Source: Burkholderia sp. WP9
GTDB taxonomy: Bacteria; Pseudomonadota; Gammaproteobacteria; Burkholderiales; Burkholderiaceae
Direction: 5' to 3'
Assembly: GCF_900104795.1 (NCBI RefSeq)
Contig: NZ_FNTG01000002.1
Location: forward strand, 2,666,001 to 2,730,000
Length of the DNA: 64,000 bases
Within the stretch, counting starts at the first letter, position 1; the number at the start of each line of letters is the position of its first letter. Of this stretch, positions 33,064 through 40,989 are shown piece by piece. The notes under the pieces were generated by a model. It did not search any database. It saw only the letters and a program-made list of their open reading frames with translations, and was not told where the DNA came from. The translations under genes were made by a program, and so were the position numbers.

Positions 33064-33421
33064 TCTATTGACGTGCCTCGCCTGAAGTCACTTTGTTCGA
33101 AGATTTCCGCGATCCGATCGTCCGACATTCGGGTCGCGCGGCGCCGAGCGCAGGCGCAATGAAGCGAACGTTTATCTTACATGGAGTCGTCCGGATCTCA
33201 GGCCGAACCCGGCATCACGCAGCGCATGCGCAAGAACTTTGCGGCGACCGGGGGAGTCGCGCTTCAGCGCGCTGCGCAAGCGGCTGGAGCAGGAGGCTGG
33301 AAGGCCCGTCGGCAGGGCGTTCGGCACGATCCAGTGCCTCTTGCGCACGGCCGACGGATCGCACGGCAGCCGCCCCGGTCCCGTCAGCGTGTAAACTGCT
33401 GACTTTTTTGACTTCGGTGGT
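33064..33421. other. intergenic region upstream of the DUF3348 cluster
   Basis: 358 bp between divergent genes. No credible coding region or repeat seen. The last ~40 bp (around 33390-33415, GTAAACTGCTGACTTTTTTGAC) are AT-richer and likely promoter-proximal for the DUF3348 gene. Confidence 0.4.
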
Positions 33422-34225
33422 ATGTTGCAAGCCCCCCCGCGCACCGCGCTCAGCGGCCCGGCGCTCATTCGCTTACTGGCTCGCCTCGCGGATGCCGACA
33501 TTCCCGAATCCAGGCAATCGCTCTCGGACCGGCTTAGCCAATGGCTCGGCTGGACCGACGCCATTGCGCTGTCCTCGGCGCTGAACGGCAATCCGCCGGC
33601 TGTCGCGGCCGGCGGTCGAGTTTTCGGCAGCGCCGAAGAGGCGGACTATGTGCGCGCGCGCAGTTCGCTGGCGAAGGCGATCACGGGCGACAGCGTATTC
33701 GCTGCCGCGCGGCGCCATGGACACGGACACGCGCACGGGCACGGGCAGGGACACGGAGCTGCTCACGCGCCGTCGCGGATTGCGCCCACGGAGCCGGCGG
33801 CCGACTACGCGGTTTTTCGTCAGCGCTATCTCGCCCTCCAGCAGTCGATGGAAACGGGCATCGGCAATCTGCGCGGCCGTCTGCGAGCCATGCTGGCGGC
33901 CAGAACGCCCGCCATGGCGCGGCTCGCGGTGGTGGATGCGGTCATGGAGCGCGCCCTGAGCGAACGTGAGCGCAATCTGCTGGCTGCCGTGCCCGGGCTG
34001 CTCGCGGGGCACTTCGAGCGCTTGCGCGCGGCCGAGCAGGCGGTGCTTACCGCCGCCGAGGCCGAGGCTGCGGCCTCGGGTGACTCCGCAGGCGACGCAA
34101 CGCCGGTCACGCCCGGCGCATGGCTGAACCTGTTCCGCAAGGATATGCAAAGCGTGTTGCTTGCCGAACTGGATATTCGTTTACAACCGGTCGAAGGGTT
34201 GCTCGCCGCCCTTCGCGCCAGCTAA
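33422..34225 (+). CDS. DUF3348 domain-containing protein
   Basis: 267-aa soluble protein, first gene of a four-gene cluster. Features: N-terminal helical segment ending 'LSDRLSQWLGWTDAIALSSALNG', a His/Gly run between residues ~97 and 113 (H-G-H-G-H-A-H-G type), 'YAVFRQRYLALQQSMETGIGNLRGRLRAML', and an alpha-helical C-terminus with 'PGAWLNLFRKDMQSVLLAELDIRLQPVEGLLAAL'. DUF3348 has no experimental function that I know of; it regularly precedes DUF802. The helical C-terminus could be an adaptor for the motor protein encoded next (inference). Confidence 0.85.
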   Translation: MLQAPPRTALSGPALIRLLARLADADIPESRQSLSDRLSQWLGWTDAIALSSALNGNPPAVAAGGRVFGSAEEADYVRARSSLAKAITGDSVFAAARRHGHGHAHGHGQGHGAAHAPSRIAPTEPAADYAVFRQRYLALQQSMETGIGNLRGRLRAMLAARTPAMARLAVVDAVMERALSERERNLLAAVPGLLAGHFERLRAAEQAVLTAAEAEAAASGDSAGDATPVTPGAWLNLFRKDMQSVLLAELDIRLQPVEGLLAALRAS

Positions 34226-34235
34226 CTGGGACACT

Positions 34236-36854
34236 ATGTCCAGATATCGTATTGATCTCGTTGTGTTTCTGGCTGGTCTGGCCGCTGTGTGCTGGATCGC
34301 CGCCGGCTACGCCGTTTCGAACCCGTTGGCGTTGGCCGTCACTCTACTGATCGGCGCTTGCTACGTGGCGGGCGCGCTCGAATTGCACCGCTACCGCGAG
34401 GCCACTGGCACGCTGACGCGCGCCGTCGCGGGGCTGTCCGCGCCGCCGCCAAGCCTCGGCGCATGGCTCGAGCCCTTGCATCCCAGCCTGCGCAACGCGG
34501 TGCGGCTGCGTGTCGAGGGCGAGCGCGTGGCCTTGCCAGGTCCGGCGCTGACGCCTTATCTGGTCGGCTTGCTAGTGTTGCTCGGCATGCTGGGTACGCT
34601 GCTCGGCATGGTGGCCACTTTGCGCGGCACCGGCATGGCGCTGGAGAGCGCAACCGACCTGCAGGCGATCCGCGCCTCGCTGGCCGCGCCGGTCAAGGGT
34701 TTGGGCTTTGCGTTCGGCACCTCGATTGCGGGCGTGGCGAGTTCCGCCATGCTGGGGCTGCTGTCCGCGCTGTGCCGGCGCGAGCGCCTGCAGGCCGCGC
34801 AGATGCTCGACGTGAAGATCGCGACGACCTTGCGCATCTACTCGCAGACCCATCAGCGTGAAGAAGCCTTCCGGCTCCTGCAACGTCAGGCCGAGGCGAT
34901 GCCCACGCTGGTCGACCGCTTGCAGACGATGATGGGGGCCATCGAGCAGCAGAGCCTCGCCTTGAATGAGCGGCAGATCGCCAGCCAGGAGGCTTTCCAT
35001 GGCCGGACCGAGGCCACTTATACGCGCCTCGCCAGTTCGGTCGAGCAGTCGTTGAAGGCGAGCGTCGCGGACAGCACGCGTGCCGCCGGCGCGGCGCTGC
35101 AGCCGGTCATGGAGGCCACGATGGCCGGTCTCGCGCGCGAAACGGCCGCGTTGCACGAGACCGTCACGCACGCCGTGCAGCGGCAACTGGACGGACTGTC
35201 GAGCGGCTTCGAGGCGAGCACCGCGACCGTCGCGGACATCTGGAACAAGGCCCTTGAAGGGCATCAGCGTTCGAGTGAGGAACTGGCGCAGCACCTGCGC
35301 GACACGCTGGATCGCTTCACCGGCACGTTCGAACAGCGCTCGGCCGGTTTGCTGGACGGCGTCGCCGCACGCCTGGAAAGCGCGGTGGGTGGCGTGTCGC
35401 AGGCCTGGAACGAGGCGCTGTCGCGCCAGGAAAGCGTCGGCGAGAAGCTCGCCGCGAACAACCAGCAAGCCCTGGCGGCGGCTGCCGCGACGTTCGAGCA
35501 GCACGCGGCGTCCCTGTTGCGCGGCGTGGGGCAGTCGCACGCGGAGTTGCAGACCGAGTTGGGCTCGAAGGACGAACAGCGGCTCGCCGCCTGGACCGAG
35601 GCGCTCGGTGCGATGGCGGCGACGCTGAGCAAGGAGTGGGAGCAGTCGGGCGCGCGCACCGCGAGCCGTCAGCAGGAAATCTGCGAGACGCTGGCGCAAA
35701 CCGCGCGCGACATATCGGTCCAGACGCAGGCTCACGCGAGCAACACGATTGCCGAAATCGACCGGCTGGTCCAGGCCGCGGCGGAAGCGCCGAAGGCCGC
35801 GGCGAACCTGCAAGCGGAGTTGGCCGCGCGGGATCAGCAACGGTTGGCAGCGTGGACCGACACGCTTGGCGCGATGGCGGCGACGTTGAGCAAGGAGTGG
35901 GAGCAGTCGGGCGCGCGCACCGCGAGCCGTCAGCAGGAAATCTGCGAGACGCTGGCGCAAACCGCACGCGACATTTCGGTCCAGACGCAGGCGCACGCGA
36001 GCAATACGATTGCCGAAATCGACCGGCTGGTCCAGGCCGCGGCGGAAGCGCCGAAGGCCGCGGCGAATCTGCAAGCGGAGTTGGCCGCGCGGGATCAGCA
36101 GAGGCTGGCCGCCTGGACCGAGGCGCTCGGAGCGATGGCGACGACGTTGAGCCACGAATGGGAACAGGCGGGCGCGCGCACCGCGAGCCGTCAGCAGGAA
36201 ATCTGCGAGACGTTGGCGCAAACCGCGCGCGATATTTCGGCCCAGACCCAGGCACACGCGAGCAGTACGATCGCCGAGATCGGCCAACTCGTGCAAGCGG
36301 CTTCGGAAGCACCCAAAGCCGCTGCCGAAGTCGTCGCCGAACTGCGCCAGAAACTCTCCGACAGCATGGTGCGCGACACCGCGATGCTGCAGGAGCGCAG
36401 CCGCTTGCTCGAAACGCTGGAAACGCTGCTCGACGCGGTCAATCACGCATCCACCGAGCAGCGCACGGCCGTCGACGCGCTCGTCGCCACTTCGGCGGAT
36501 TTGCTGGAGCGCGTGGGGACACGCTTCACCGACAGGATCGAACTCGAAACCGGCAAGCTGGGCTCGGTGGCCGCGCAAGTCACCGGCAGCGCTGTCGAAG
36601 TAGCGAGCCTCGGCGAAGCGTTCTGCGCCGCCGTGCAAGTGTTCGGCGAGTCGAACGACAAGCTGGTCGCGCACCTGCAGCGTATCGAAACCGCACTCGA
36701 CAAATCGCTCGCGCGCAGCGACGAACAGCTTGCGTATTACGTGGCGCAGGCGCGGGAAGTCATCGACCTGAGCGTGATGTCGCAGAAGCAGATCGTCGAA
36801 GACCTGCAGCAGCTCGCCGGGCGGCGCGCGGCAGCCGGAGCTGAAGCGGCATGA
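34236..36854 (+). CDS. DUF802 protein: MotA/TolQ/ZorA-like channel with long coiled-coil tail
   Basis: 872 aa from the ATG at 34236, 10 nt after DUF3348. Two close N-terminal TM helices (residues ~7-48) are followed by a loop and two more (~110-130, ~148-170). 'LLVLLGMLGTLLGMVATLRG' and 'PVKGLGFAFGTSIAGVASSAMLGLLSALCRRER' match the conserved TM3/TM4 layout of MotA/TolQ/ExbB proton channels. The remaining ~680 residues are Ala/Gln/Glu-rich coiled coil including three 87-residue repeats. This is the architecture of ZorA (MotA-like plus long cytoplasmic tail). The stop overlaps the OmpA-like gene by ATGA. DUF802 assignment is from recall; motor homology is inference. Confidence 0.85.
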   Translation: MSRYRIDLVVFLAGLAAVCWIAAGYAVSNPLALAVTLLIGACYVAGALELHRYREATGTLTRAVAGLSAPPPSLGAWLEPLHPSLRNAVRLRVEGERVALPGPALTPYLVGLLVLLGMLGTLLGMVATLRGTGMALESATDLQAIRASLAAPVKGLGFAFGTSIAGVASSAMLGLLSALCRRERLQAAQMLDVKIATTLRIYSQTHQREEAFRLLQRQAEAMPTLVDRLQTMMGAIEQQSLALNERQIASQEAFHGRTEATYTRLASSVEQSLKASVADSTRAAGAALQPVMEATMAGLARETAALHETVTHAVQRQLDGLSSGFEASTATVADIWNKALEGHQRSSEELAQHLRDTLDRFTGTFEQRSAGLLDGVAARLESAVGGVSQAWNEALSRQESVGEKLAANNQQALAAAAATFEQHAASLLRGVGQSHAELQTELGSKDEQRLAAWTEALGAMAATLSKEWEQSGARTASRQQEICETLAQTARDISVQTQAHASNTIAEIDRLVQAAAEAPKAAANLQAELAARDQQRLAAWTDTLGAMAATLSKEWEQSGARTASRQQEICETLAQTARDISVQTQAHASNTIAEIDRLVQAAAEAPKAAANLQAELAARDQQRLAAWTEALGAMATTLSHEWEQAGARTASRQQEICETLAQTARDISAQTQAHASSTIAEIGQLVQAASEAPKAAAEVVAELRQKLSDSMVRDTAMLQERSRLLETLETLLDAVNHASTEQRTAVDALVATSADLLERVGTRFTDRIELETGKLGSVAAQVTGSAVEVASLGEAFCAAVQVFGESNDKLVAHLQRIETALDKSLARSDEQLAYYVAQAREVIDLSVMSQKQIVEDLQQLAGRRAAAGAEAA
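35571..36340 (+). repeat. three tandem 261-bp (87-residue) repeats in the DUF802 gene
   Basis: The unit beginning 'DEQRLAAWTEALGAMAATLS' recurs at 35571, 35832 and 36093, exactly 261 bp apart. Copies 1 and 2 are near-identical in nucleotide sequence; copy 3 diverges after 'IGQLVQAASEAPKAAAE'. They lengthen the coiled coil without breaking frame. Confidence 0.9.
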
Positions 36855-37498
36855 GCGAGGACATCGACGGCGGCGTGGAGCAGGTCGCGCCGATCTGGCC
36901 GGTTTTTGGCGACCTGATGTCGGTGCTGCTCGGCGCCTTCGTACTCATCCTGGTGGGCGTCATTGGCGTGCAACTGGAGCTGTCGAACAAGCTGGAGCAG
37001 GAGGTCAAGCAACGTCAGCTCGAAACGCAGCGCCGCAAGACGCTGGAGCAGGCGCTCGCGGGCCCGCTCGCGGCCGGGCGCGTGACACTCGTGAATGGCC
37101 GCATCGGCATTAGCGGCAATGTGCTGTTCGCGCTGAACTCCGATCAATTGCAGCCGCAAGGGCGGGATCTGCTCAAGAGTCTGGCCGGGCCGCTCTCGGC
37201 GTATCTCGGCGCCAATGACGAGATCCTGATGGTGAGCGGCTTTACCGACGACCAGCGTTTGCGCGAAGGCAATCGTCGTTTCGCCGATAACTGGGAATTG
37301 TCGGCGCAACGGGCGTTGACGGTGACGCGCGCGTTGATCGACGACGGCGTGCCTGCCTCGTCGCTCTTTGCGGCCGCGTTCGGCTCCGGCCAACCCGTGA
37401 GTTCGAATACCGACGAGCAGGGACGCGCCAAAAACCGGCGCGTGGAAATCGCGCCGGTCCCGCGCCCGTCGTCTTCCACGGTGAAGCCTCGTGAGTAA
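36851..37498 (+). CDS. MotB/ZorB-like OmpA-family protein
   Basis: 215 aa. Short cytoplasmic N-terminus, then a single TM helix (residues ~20-42) preceded by 'WPVFGDLMSVLLGAFVLIL'. Asp21 occupies the position of the proton-carrying Asp of MotB/ZorB plug helices. A coiled linker (~45-65) leads to an OmpA_C peptidoglycan-binding domain (~75-205): 'VLFALNSDQLQPQGRDLL', 'VSGFTDDQRL', 'NWELSAQRALTVTRALIDDGV' and 'DEQGRAKNRRVEI', including the D/R pair that binds diaminopimelate. It is the presumed stator/anchor partner of the DUF802 protein; the genes overlap by 4 nt. Confidence 0.9.
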   Translation: MSEDIDGGVEQVAPIWPVFGDLMSVLLGAFVLILVGVIGVQLELSNKLEQEVKQRQLETQRRKTLEQALAGPLAAGRVTLVNGRIGISGNVLFALNSDQLQPQGRDLLKSLAGPLSAYLGANDEILMVSGFTDDQRLREGNRRFADNWELSAQRALTVTRALIDDGVPASSLFAAAFGSGQPVSSNTDEQGRAKNRRVEIAPVPRPSSSTVKPRE

Positions 37499-38159
37499 GC
37501 CCGACAGCGATCCGGCAAACGGAGCCCGGGCGACGCTCGACGCGTGGCGCGCGCGCGGCGCCGATCGTCTGGATCCGGTCCGCTTTCATTTCATCGAGGC
37601 GCTGGCCCGGCGCGCGGCCGGCCACAGCGGCGAGGCGCGACGGATTCTGGATGACCGGTTAGCCGGTCTGCTGGAAGCGTATGGTGGGCAGATCGAACGT
37701 TCAGAAAGTTCGACGGACGATGCCGACGCCTTAAGGCGCGCGGACCGCACGGCGTCGTTGCCAGACGAGCCCGCGCAGGCAACGCTGAAGAGCCTCGTCG
37801 ACTCCATCGCGAGTCAACATGCGCTCGCGACGAACGGCTGGCCGCGATTCACCTCGTATCCGGAACTAGCGGAACTCGATTACTTCAGGGAAGTCTGGTC
37901 CAAAGTCCGTACCGAGAAGCAGATGCGACAGTCGCTCGAGCAGGTGCCTGGCAACGCCGGTCCGCTGAACTCGAGCAGCCTCGTTCATCGTGCGCTCTCG
38001 CTCATGCGCGAGGTATCGCCCGGTTATCTCAAGCAGTTCCTCTCCTATGTCGACGCCTTGTCGTGGATGGAGCAGATCAACGGCGCCACGGCGCCGGTGG
38101 GTAAAGAGGCCCCGCGCGCCGGCAACCCCGGCAAGAGCGCTCGCGGCAAAGCACGCTAA
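37491..38159 (+). CDS. DUF2894 domain-containing protein
   Basis: 222 aa, soluble, overlapping the OmpA-like gene by 8 nt and ending the cluster. N-terminal 'ARATLDAWRARGADRLDPVRFHFIEALARRAAGHSGEARRILDDRLAGLLEAY' is the DUF2894 signature. C-terminal part has 'LDYFREVWSKVRTEKQMRQSLEQVPGNAGPLNS' and a basic tail. Probably the cytoplasmic effector or regulator of the motor pair (context inference). No enzymatic motif seen. Confidence 0.85.
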   Translation: MSKPDSDPANGARATLDAWRARGADRLDPVRFHFIEALARRAAGHSGEARRILDDRLAGLLEAYGGQIERSESSTDDADALRRADRTASLPDEPAQATLKSLVDSIASQHALATNGWPRFTSYPELAELDYFREVWSKVRTEKQMRQSLEQVPGNAGPLNSSSLVHRALSLMREVSPGYLKQFLSYVDALSWMEQINGATAPVGKEAPRAGNPGKSARGKAR

Positions 38160-38166
38160 CGGTAGC

Positions 38167-38194
38167 GGCGACGGCATACTGCCGGCGCCTTTTT
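38167..38194 (+). terminator. terminator of the DUF3348-DUF2894 operon
   Basis: GGCGACGGCA (38167-38176) pairs with TGCCGGCGCC (38180-38189), one internal mismatch, 3-nt loop, followed by TTTTT. Confidence 0.8.
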
Positions 38195-38590: not shown

Positions 38591-39343
38591 TCATTCCCCG
38601 GTGCTGGGCACGCGCGTCGACTTCGCGCGGCGTACCAGCATGTTCATCGCCTCGACGAACGCGGAGAACGCCATCGCCACGTAGATGTATGTTTTCGGCA
38701 CGTGTGAGCCAAAACCTTCAGCAATGAGCGTCATGCCGATCACGAGCAGGAAACTCAGCGCGAGCGTGACGATGGTCGGATTACGATCGATGAAGCGTGA
38801 CAGCGGACGCGCTGCGAACAGCATGACCAGCACCGCGCTGATCACCGCGATGAACATGATCGGCATATGGTCCGTCATGCCGACCGCCGTGATGATGCTG
38901 TCGACCGAAAACACGATATCGAGCAACAGGATCTGGCCGATCGCGCCTGCCACGGTCAACTGCACGGTGCTGCTCGCGTTGCCGCGTTCTTCTTCCGCAT
39001 GCACCACGTGATGGTGAATCTCACGCGTCGCCTTCCAGACGAGGAACAGACCACCACCGAGCAGGATCAGATCGCGCCACGAAAACGCATGGCCGAACAG
39101 CGTGACGGCGGGCGCGGTCAACTGGGCAATCCAGGCAACCGTACCGAGCAGGCCCAGTCGCAGCACGAGCGCGAGCATGATGCCCAGACGCTGCGTGCGG
39201 GCGCGTTGCGCTTCCGGCAGCTTGTTGCTGAGGATCGAGATGAAAATCAGGTTGTCGATGCCGAGCACGATCTCCATCACGACCAGTGTGAGGAGCGCTG
39301 CCCATGCAGCAGGGTCGGAAGCGAGTGTGAGCAGAAAGTCCAT
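38591..39343 (-). CDS. TerC family integral membrane protein
   Basis: 250 aa with seven or so TM helices. '[23 protein letters not shown]' and '[26 protein letters not shown]' carry the two conserved acidic metal-binding motifs of TerC/YkoY proteins, which export metal ions such as manganese. I see no yybP-ykoY-like leader in the 120-bp upstream gap. Divergent from nhaR and followed downstream by the zinc-ribbon gene on the same strand (84-bp gap). Confidence 0.9.
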
Positions 39344-39463: not shown

Positions 39464-40345
39464 ATGCTCAATTACCGTCATCTGTACTATTTCTGGATCG
39501 TCGTGAAGGAAGGCGGCTTCGCGCGCGCGGCCGAGCGGCTCGATATGGCGGTTCAGACCATTAGCGCGCAGGTGCGCGAGCTGGAAAAATCGATCGGCCG
39601 CCAGCTGTTGAAACCGGCCGGGCGCGGCGTCACGATGACGGAGGCCGGCGAGACGGCATTCAATCGCGCGGAGCAGATTTTTCAGATCGGCGAGGCGTTG
39701 CTCGACGAGATGCGCGAGGCGGGTGGGGAAGGCGTGGCGCGGCTCGCGGTGGGTCTTTCCGACGGCATTTCAAAGCTCGCGGCGCACGCGCTGCTGGCGC
39801 CGGTGCTCGGCACGCCGTCGCTCAGGCTCTTGTGCCACGAGGGTGAGCATGCAGAGCTGATGTCGGAGCTTGCGCTGCACAGGCTCGATCTGGTGCTCGC
39901 GTGCCAGCCGGCGCCGCACAATGCCGACCTGCGCGTGTTGAGCCAGCGCCTTGCGGGTTCGCCGGTCGATTGGTACGGCCCGGCGGAGATGGTCCGCAAG
40001 TCCGCGCGCGCGGGCTTTCCGCAGTGCCTCGCGGAGGTGCCTCTGCTTCTGCCCACCCGGCACGCCGCGTTGCGCGCACGCCTTGACCGGTGGTTCGAGG
40101 CGCAAGGCATCCGGCCGCGCATCGTCGGCGAGTTCGAGGACAGCGCGTTGATGGCGGTGTTTGCCGCGCGCGGCCTCGGCGTATTCCCGCTCGCGGAACT
40201 GGGCGCGGAAGACCTGTCGCTGCTGCGAGGCCTGCGCTGGCTCGGCCGCGCGGACGGCGTGATCGAAGAGATCCACGCCATCCGGTCGCGTCGCGGCCAA
40301 CATCACGGCCTGGCGTCTCAGGTGGTGGCCGGCGCGCGGTTATAA
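39464..40345 (+). CDS. nhaR: NhaR-like LysR-family regulator
   Basis: 293 aa. N-terminus 'MLNYRHLYYFWIVVKEGGFARAAERLDMAVQTISAQVRELE' matches the NhaR subgroup (N-Y-x-H-L-Y-Y-F-W). In E. coli NhaR activates the Na+/H+ antiporter nhaA and pga genes; no antiporter is adjacent here, but divergent terC is a plausible target. The 3' end overlaps the convergent TerB-like gene by 28 bp. Confidence 0.85.
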   Translation: MLNYRHLYYFWIVVKEGGFARAAERLDMAVQTISAQVRELEKSIGRQLLKPAGRGVTMTEAGETAFNRAEQIFQIGEALLDEMREAGGEGVARLAVGLSDGISKLAAHALLAPVLGTPSLRLLCHEGEHAELMSELALHRLDLVLACQPAPHNADLRVLSQRLAGSPVDWYGPAEMVRKSARAGFPQCLAEVPLLLPTRHAALRARLDRWFEAQGIRPRIVGEFEDSALMAVFAARGLGVFPLAELGAEDLSLLRGLRWLGRADGVIEEIHAIRSRRGQHHGLASQVVAGARL

Positions 40346-40779
40346 CTACGCAGCACGTGCGAGGGGAGGCCCTGACGTCGCGCGGCAGGCGTCAGATTGG
40401 GGCCCCACGCATTCAATACGGCGGCAAGCACGGCGATTTCACCGTCCGCCAGAAAGTCGTCGGCGACCGCCACGGCCACGCATAGGCGAATCACCTTGCG
40501 ACGCAGCGCGGGATCGTCGATCTCGTCGATCAAGGTCGTCAGCATGGCCGGATCGAGATGACCCACCGGCGGCGCAAACGAAGGCTGTGCGACCGAGTGA
40601 TCCTCGCATAGCGTCTGCACGATCTGCTCGAATTGTGCCGGTGCGAGACCGAGTTCGCCGGCAATATCCAGTCTGTCCAGCACACGCTCTTCCGAGCTGC
40701 TAACGTGGCCGTCGGCGGTGAGAGCGAGCGCGACGATGCGTGCTGCGGCTTGCGGGCTGTTACGGGGATAGGTGCGCAT
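40318..40779 (-). CDS. TerB-like tellurite-resistance family protein
   Basis: 153 aa from the ATG at 40779 (AAAGGA 8 nt upstream). All-helical TerB/DjlA-N pattern: 'AARIVALALTADGHVSSSEERVLDRLDIAGELGL' with the first acidic motif, and 'VIRLCVAVAVADDFLADGEIAVLAAVLNAWG' with the second ('A-D-x-x…D-G-E'). The two motifs coordinate divalent metal in TerB. Proximity to terC suggests a shared metal/envelope-stress role. Confidence 0.8.
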   Translation of the reverse strand: MRTYPRNSPQAAARIVALALTADGHVSSSEERVLDRLDIAGELGLAPAQFEQIVQTLCEDHSVAQPSFAPPVGHLDPAMLTTLIDEIDDPALRRKVIRLCVAVAVADDFLADGEIAVLAAVLNAWGPNLTPAARRQGLPSHVLRSYNRAPATT

Positions 40780-40989
40780 GATAGGGTCCTTTCGCGGATA
40801 TGTCCGTAGTGAAGATGAACCCAGTCTGCGGCATGCGGTGGATCGAATAAACCTGCCAATTACGAACAAATGGTTCGGAAAAAACGAAGCTTGCCGGTTA
40901 GCCAATCGTGCCGGATGCGCTCGACAGGTCACCGATGAGAAGTTGAAGTTCCTGCCTTCTCACCGGGGAACCATGCGGCCGTTATCGAT

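Follow-up and report, generated by a model that had tools for sequence, protein, structure and literature searches.

Gene Content and Identity of the Cluster

The window, i.e., the whole 64,000-nucleotide stretch of DNA that was analyzed, belongs to a genome of 9.02 Mb in 7 contigs. Among named species, Paraburkholderia xenovorans and P. aromaticivorans are the closest to it, so that the host is itself most probably a Paraburkholderia. Four genes follow one another on its forward strand: zorG3 (DUF3348; 33422..34225; 267 aa), zorA3 (DUF802; 34236..36854; 872 aa), zorB3 (OmpA; 36851..37498; 215 aa), and zorF3 (DUF2894; 37491..38159; 222 aa, with a GTG start). The genes zorA and zorB overlap by 4 bp and zorB and zorF by 8 bp; the ATG at 34236 was taken as the ZorA start, and ZorA residue numbers count from there. 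The coordinates and domain assignments proposed in an initial annotation hold, with Pfam matches to DUF3348 (3.7e-94), DUF802 (4e-31, in two stretches), OmpA (6e-17), and DUF2894 (8.8e-67). All four genes match Zorya type III families in PADLOC with E ≤ 2.1e-83 (ZorG3, 2.9e-111; ZorA3, E of 0; ZorB3, 3.6e-118; ZorF3, 2.1e-83), and among the NCBIfam matches listed, only one, for ZorB, exceeds the cut-off of its model, which is named “hypothetical protein.” Gene names used here follow PADLOC-DB, in which DUF3348 is ZorG and DUF2894 is ZorF; the names are swapped in the excerpted texts of PMC8565338 and PMC11890865 (DUF3348 as ZorF and DUF2894 as ZorG).

Its profile matches identify the cluster as an operon of Zorya type III and thus as a further member of an already named system: the four families, the gene set, and the flanking arrangement are those of Zorya type III (ZorGABF in PADLOC; PMC8565338, in excerpt), and nothing excludes membership. 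The initial annotation was right to propose a motor of the ZorAB type accompanied by two soluble proteins; by hydropathy, ZorG and ZorF have no transmembrane (TM) segments. It was mistaken in calling the motor module “uncharacterised,” as Zorya type III was named with 6,401 loci by Payne et al. (2021), whose excerpted text also reports that the system of Stenotrophomonas nitritireducens is protective in E. coli, where it reduced phage plaques (PMC8565338).

All four genes were recovered by tblastn at 39 of 40 genome loci, the one exception being a locus (L083) at which ZorG was missed, and they occur in order on one strand at 78 of 80 loci from a database; each of the two exceptions begins at a contig end. 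Three pairwise comparisons gave dN/dS values of 0.02–0.11 for ZorB, 0.11–0.15 for the ZorA membrane part and early tail, 0.23–0.32 for ZorG, and 0.16–0.36 for ZorF, with 0.14 for the neighboring TerC; the zor genes are under purifying selection in these three comparisons.

Motor Core and Comparison With Known Systems

ZorA3 consists of a membrane part (approximately residues 6–180) followed by a long tail (~640 residues) that is predicted to be helical. The TM3 (G-M-L-G-T-L-L-G-M) and TM4 (A-F-G-T-S) motifs are at least 97% conserved among 118 aligned ZorA3 proteins, and T121, T162, and S163 are candidate channel residues. The ZorA3 TM3/TM4 region was aligned by hhalign with TM3/TM4 of ZorA1 at E 1.3e-4, with a probability of only 53.5 and a low Neff, and PADLOC matched ZorA3 to the ZorA1 (1.6e-8) and ZorA2 (7.4e-8) profiles as well. 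The kinship to MotA/TolQ previously suggested for the DUF802 membrane region therefore stands by way of the ZorA1 and ZorA2 profiles and not by way of the generic Pfam family MotA_ExbB (PF01618), which matched ZorA3 below its curated cut-off (E 0.6; 10.3 vs 22.9 bits).

In ZorB3, Asp21 directly precedes the single TM helix (residues 22–40), as had been noted, and an OmpA domain spans residues 92–196. Residues P14, W16, and D21 are invariant in comparison with five ZorB1 proteins from type I loci of the host genus and, like the OmpA-domain residues N147, L150, S151, and R154, are at least 97% conserved over 121 rows. An Asp by the TM helix and a peptidoglycan-binding domain are common to all Zorya types, and both are present in ZorB3 by sequence; the motor aspartates are D24 in type I and D21 in type II according to the excerpted text of PMC11890865. 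Judging from these conserved positions, the motor core (ZorB Asp21, the OmpA domain, and the ZorA TM3/TM4 motifs) is retained.

The cluster shares with Zorya type I (ZorABCD) the ZorAB motor, the Asp before the TM helix, the peptidoglycan-binding B subunit, and the long ZorA tail, but PADLOC detected neither ZorC nor ZorD among the four genes or ten neighbors in the window. Moreover, the ZorC domain is patchy in the host genus and located at low-GC loci, and the 14 ZorA1 tails examined have no 87-residue periodicity, unlike ZorA3. The one EH_Signature match of this genome is on another contig (C1). Zorya type II (ZorABE) has the ZorAB motor and the key Asp21 (PMC11890865, in excerpt) in common with the cluster, which differs in having all-helical partners instead of the HNH nickase ZorE, with no ZorE among the same four genes and ten neighbors. 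The flagellar MotAB stator is similar in its channel motifs (via the ZorA profiles) and peptidoglycan-binding B subunit, and MotB chains match ZorB; on the other hand, the cluster has the ~640-residue tail and DUF partners, and a Pfam scan of the ten neighbors found no flagellar families. The sub-threshold MotA_ExbB match and the OmpA domain might also point to a TolQR/ExbBD-like pair that has no relation to Zorya and energizes some process at the outer membrane. This reading, already disfavored, is scarcely credible, since each of the four genes specifically matches a type III family in PADLOC and the partnership with DUF3348 and DUF2894 is constant.

Partner Proteins

The AlphaFold models of ZorG (pLDDT 76.5, pTM 0.71) and ZorF (pLDDT 71.2 and a poor pTM of 0.40) are all-helical, and neither model had a Foldseek match in the PDB at E 0.001 (best E of 0.53 and 1.3, respectively). 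Because both models are all-helical with no PDB match, the role of the two proteins can only be inferred. An enzyme fold in either protein was considered and rejected, as no Foldseek match fell below E 0.5, with the reservation that for ZorF the quality of the model is insufficient to rule it out. In the libraries searched, and subject to the same weak model, the flanking proteins likewise gave no nuclease or helicase match, in line with the earlier reading of the sequence. The C-terminal tail of ZorF is basic, with a net charge of at least +4 over the last 25 aa in 113 of 119 relatives. ZorG of this genome carries a His/Gly-rich linker (HGHGHAHGHGQGHG) and has 8 His vs a family median of 3.

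Stepped Length of the ZorA Rod

The ZorA tail harbors a tandem repeat (35577..36282, forward strand), in which TRF counts 2.7 copies of a unit of 261 bp (87 residues) and which was missing from the initial annotation, as was the box upstream of zorG (33387–33409). The first and second units are 94% identical in DNA, and ZorA of this genome differs from that of P. xenovorans LB400 by a single block of exactly two units (174 residues). Among 117 distinct ZorA3 lengths, 83 are within one residue of 699 + 87n, and 87 was the best modulus between 20 and 129, with a 20.6-fold enrichment. The length classes of 698–700 + 87n with n of 0, 1, 2, and 3 contain 28, 24, 18, and 12 proteins, respectively (82 of 117), and 35 proteins are unclassed. 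Rod length thus tends to change in fixed 87-residue steps. Sub-steps of 29 residues were not supported (5 of the 34 remaining lengths fit vs 3.5 expected). A pure artifact of draft assembly was rejected, as the four classes also accommodate 16 of the 23 genus loci located on long contigs (≥1.8 Mb), although repeats may have collapsed in some draft assemblies.

In a quick tree of the non-repeat parts of ZorA, the length classes require 30 changes vs a shuffled mean of 43.5, so the class labels are still clustered, and the starred branches alone force 6 to 16 changes per length class. The strongest hydrophobic period of the ZorA3 tail is 3.66, which is hendecad-like, and 87 residues equal 24 turns of 3.625 residues. 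The four classes would correspond to rods of approximately 70, 83, 96, and 109 nm, an estimate that assumes a fully helical tail.

The tail bears on an alternative in which ZorAB is a plain ion leak upon infection that kills by depolarization, while ZorF and ZorG only gate it. Abortive infection by a proton channel, with ZorF and ZorG as regulators, was earlier proposed for Zorya (PMC8565338, in excerpt), and the lack of a visible enzyme fold in the two proteins is consistent with this proposal. However, types I and II need a structured ZorA tail in addition to ion flow, and peptidoglycan binding is important in them as well (PMC11890865, in excerpt), and the long tail of type III is retained and varies mostly by whole 87-residue units, which makes a plain leak quite improbable.

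Upstream Box and Transcription Signals

A promoter-like box (GCGTGTAAACTGCTGACTTTTTT; 33387..33409, forward strand) consists of TGTAAACT (33390–33397) and a T-tract (33404–33409) and has the form TGTAAACT-N6-TTTTT, located ~32 bp before zorG. An exact GTGTAAACT is found at most 60 bp from zorG at 107 of 115 loci (114 distinct sequences). Within a set of 76 loci picked solely for mutually unrelated DNA at −200 to −60 (<42% identical), 69 have the exact GTGTAAACT, 74 have TGTAMAMT, and 73 have TGTAMAMT followed by TTTT after 4–8 bases. Neither GTGTAAACT in the control stretch at −200 to −60 nor the reversed 9-mer was found at any of these loci (0/76 each). The 98% identity of the box is conditioned on the presence of the motif, and the unconditioned counts of 107/115 and 69/76 are those relied on.

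A search of 31 genomes for CGTGTAAACT-N6-TTTTT returned 16 matches, at most one per genome and all 16 just upstream of DUF3348, and the reversed control gave no match in the 31 genomes. The 16 genomes are among 19 sampled from the host genus; of the three genus members with no exact match, one (G081) is without the system and two (G053 and G025) carry Zorya III. In the genome studied here, the 22-mer of the box is unique at up to 3 mismatches, and no regulon sharing the box was found there.

The box contains TAAACT, which resembles a −10 element, and no conserved −35 element was found upstream of zorG. We infer that the box is a promoter of the −10-like kind, which is preferred over an attenuator hairpin around the box because the left arm of such a hairpin varies while its right arm is mostly fixed. 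The T-tract falls within the likely initially transcribed region, and UTP-sensitive slippage on this tract and autoregulation by ZorG are offered as ideas. A terminator-like hairpin (38172–38184) with a T-run follows zorF (38172..38194, forward strand). Of the single terminator claimed in the initial annotation, the hairpin-like sequence is there, but such matches are near the level of shuffled sequence (5 found vs 3.9 in shuffles).

Distribution

The Zorya III cassette is near-core in the host genus. DUF2894 was detected in 133 of 144 genomes (127 of 137 high-quality genomes) and DUF3348 also in 133, with the same 11 genomes lacking both; a few genomes have a second DUF match that is weak or fragmentary. 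In the same 144 genomes, the ZorC domain of Zorya I was found in 13 and HSDR_N of type I restriction in 68. The 11 genomes without the system have weak ZorB matches, mostly to the OmpA domain (best E 2.9e-13, 40%). A wider sampling gave matches in 171 of 249 genomes and 11 of 25 genera of the family, and in 8 of 369 genomes and 6 of 272 genera of the class, including the genome studied here. Matches occurred in 27 of 72,556 records of a plasmid collection (the 25 listed being replicons of 0.6–3.5 Mb) and in none of 50,697 phage records, and none of 35 pattern matches in viral contigs was confirmed. A match to PF11445 (DUF2894) was reported in the control genome of Corynebacterium glutamicum.

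Prevalence far above that of the ZorC and HSDR_N controls and the lack of phage or confirmed viral relatives are in favor of another reading, in which the main job of the operon is that of a resident motor of the cell envelope, concerned with wall or envelope stress, and its anti-phage action is a side effect that shows upon overexpression. Against it, the protection of E. coli by a homologue (PMC8565338, in excerpt) can be set, as can the scattered absences on the rpoB tree, where 9 of the 11 genomes without the system found a place and require 5 changes; because of this scatter, Zorya III is taken to be dispensable.

Genomic Neighborhood and Inheritance

By Pfam, the ten neighbors in the window include a sodium:solute symporter, two LysR regulators, a GGDEF-EAL protein, an FAD oxidoreductase, a zinc-ribbon protein, TerC, a TerB-domain protein, and a histidine kinase, with one having no Pfam match; PADLOC at E ≤ 0.001 matched the histidine kinase only, and weakly (PDC-M43B, 2.1e-7). 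The TerC-family (38591–39343) and TerB-domain (40318–40932) genes lie just downstream of the cluster. At other host-genus loci, a TerC gene adjoins Zorya III in only 4 of 24 cases (tblastn), and the flank block of the window (zinc-ribbon protein, TerC, and LysR on one side and FAD oxidoreductase on the other) is present on both sides at 4 of 24 and on one side only at 1 further locus.

The flanks were scanned more widely using 148 of 160 called ORFs from 40 loci (the two nearest on each side; 12 left out, longest first), of which 21 PADLOC families found a match at 1e-10. Twelve of these families matched three members each and are helicase-like models, probably on the same three ORFs. The other nine matched one member each and include MzaA (2.6e-57), mad3, mad8, HNH, ThsC2, and two ZorG3 models whose match is probably the divergent ZorG of L083. 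A ZorC control (133 of 150 chosen ORFs from 14 loci, up to the 11 nearest; 17 left out, longest first) matched 275 families, with ZorA1 and ZorB1 at all 14 loci. The two sets are imperfectly matched, as the ORF rules and radii differ, PADLOC output counts families and not hits per protein, and the control retains ZorA, ZorB, and other partners (20 of 25 listed families are Zor). The GC content is 0.623–0.691 at 24 Zorya III loci of the genus vs 0.555–0.606 at the 14 ZorC loci. The suggested enrichment in defense islands was hence not borne out, with few PADLOC matches in neighbors and flanks vs many at the ZorC controls, and a defense-island gene was rejected since the neighborhood is not defense-rich and the GC content is not atypical.

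The GC content and the scarcity of defense neighbors are again in favor of a mainly envelope-related motor, while the MzaA match, because of which some copies are seen to adjoin defense-like genes, is not. Strictly vertical core inheritance was also rejected. In quick trees of 40 genomes, 13 of 37 Zor splits are common to rpoB, a number that none of 1000 label permutations reached. Of the 17 starred Zor splits, however, 6 conflict with starred splits of rpoB, and long outgroup branches are involved in two of these conflicts. The flanks of Zorya III loci differ by clade. Since close species agree with rpoB and deeper splits often do not, the cassette persists and seems also to have moved between genera, which tells against the envelope motor as well.

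Proposed Function

We consider it likely, taking the explanation as a whole, that the Zorya III operon encodes an ion-driven motor with rod-docked adaptors. Homology with the structures of types I and II suggests that ZorA and ZorB would form, in a ratio of five to two, a peptidoglycan-tethered ion channel. When the wall is disturbed, as at phage entry, ZorB would grip peptidoglycan, ions would flow past Asp21, and the long helical rod would be turned or re-set in the cytoplasm by the ring of ZorA. Less well supported is the part of ZorG and ZorF, which have no visible enzyme fold: both may dock on the rod as adaptors, the basic tail of ZorF may contact nucleic acid, and infection may be halted with no need for the nucleases that types I and II employ. 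The operon would be retained as one resident copy under its own promoter. This copy may also protect its own host.

Several observations count against this explanation, namely the near-universal presence outside island-like surroundings, which is unusual for a defense system, the modest hhalign probability between ZorA3 and ZorA1 (53.5), and the poor ZorF model (pTM 0.40). Bcep176 infection of B. cenocepacia K56-2 altered the transcription of the leading genes in its predicted Zorya III operon, but no predicted defense system altered fitness in knock-downs during the infection; the authors offer four possible reasons for the null result, and guides were too few for 3 of 34 genes (PMC12584637, in excerpt). 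The absence of a CRISPRi fitness effect would favor the motor acting mainly in the envelope, which we nonetheless regard as unlikely on balance.

A bolder version of the favored motor, which we hold to be less likely than not, casts Zorya III in this genus as a resident, near-core envelope guard with a genome-unique promoter box instead of an accessory gene of islands, and its rod length as an evolving, stepped trait. As 87 residues make 24 whole turns, recombination between repeats would add or lose copies with the register of the bundle unbroken, and rod length would determine the cytoplasmic reach of the motor.

The near-core presence, 87-residue rod steps, and upstream box of Zorya III were not found in the open-licence literature, where type III has just brief coverage among the three Zorya types in the part searched, and neither its structure nor its mechanism was found in the literature, most subscription papers being outside the scope. 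A near-core copy in tractable soil bacteria makes the native role testable, the stepped rod lengths are a natural series for asking what purpose a Zorya rod serves, and the timing of motor production can be approached through the conserved promoter-like box. The genome studied here also has a type I Zorya locus (C1:731101-751100, L148) with ZorA1, ZorB1, and ZorC at 59% GC, and an HSDR_N match is located ~26 kb from its ZorC.
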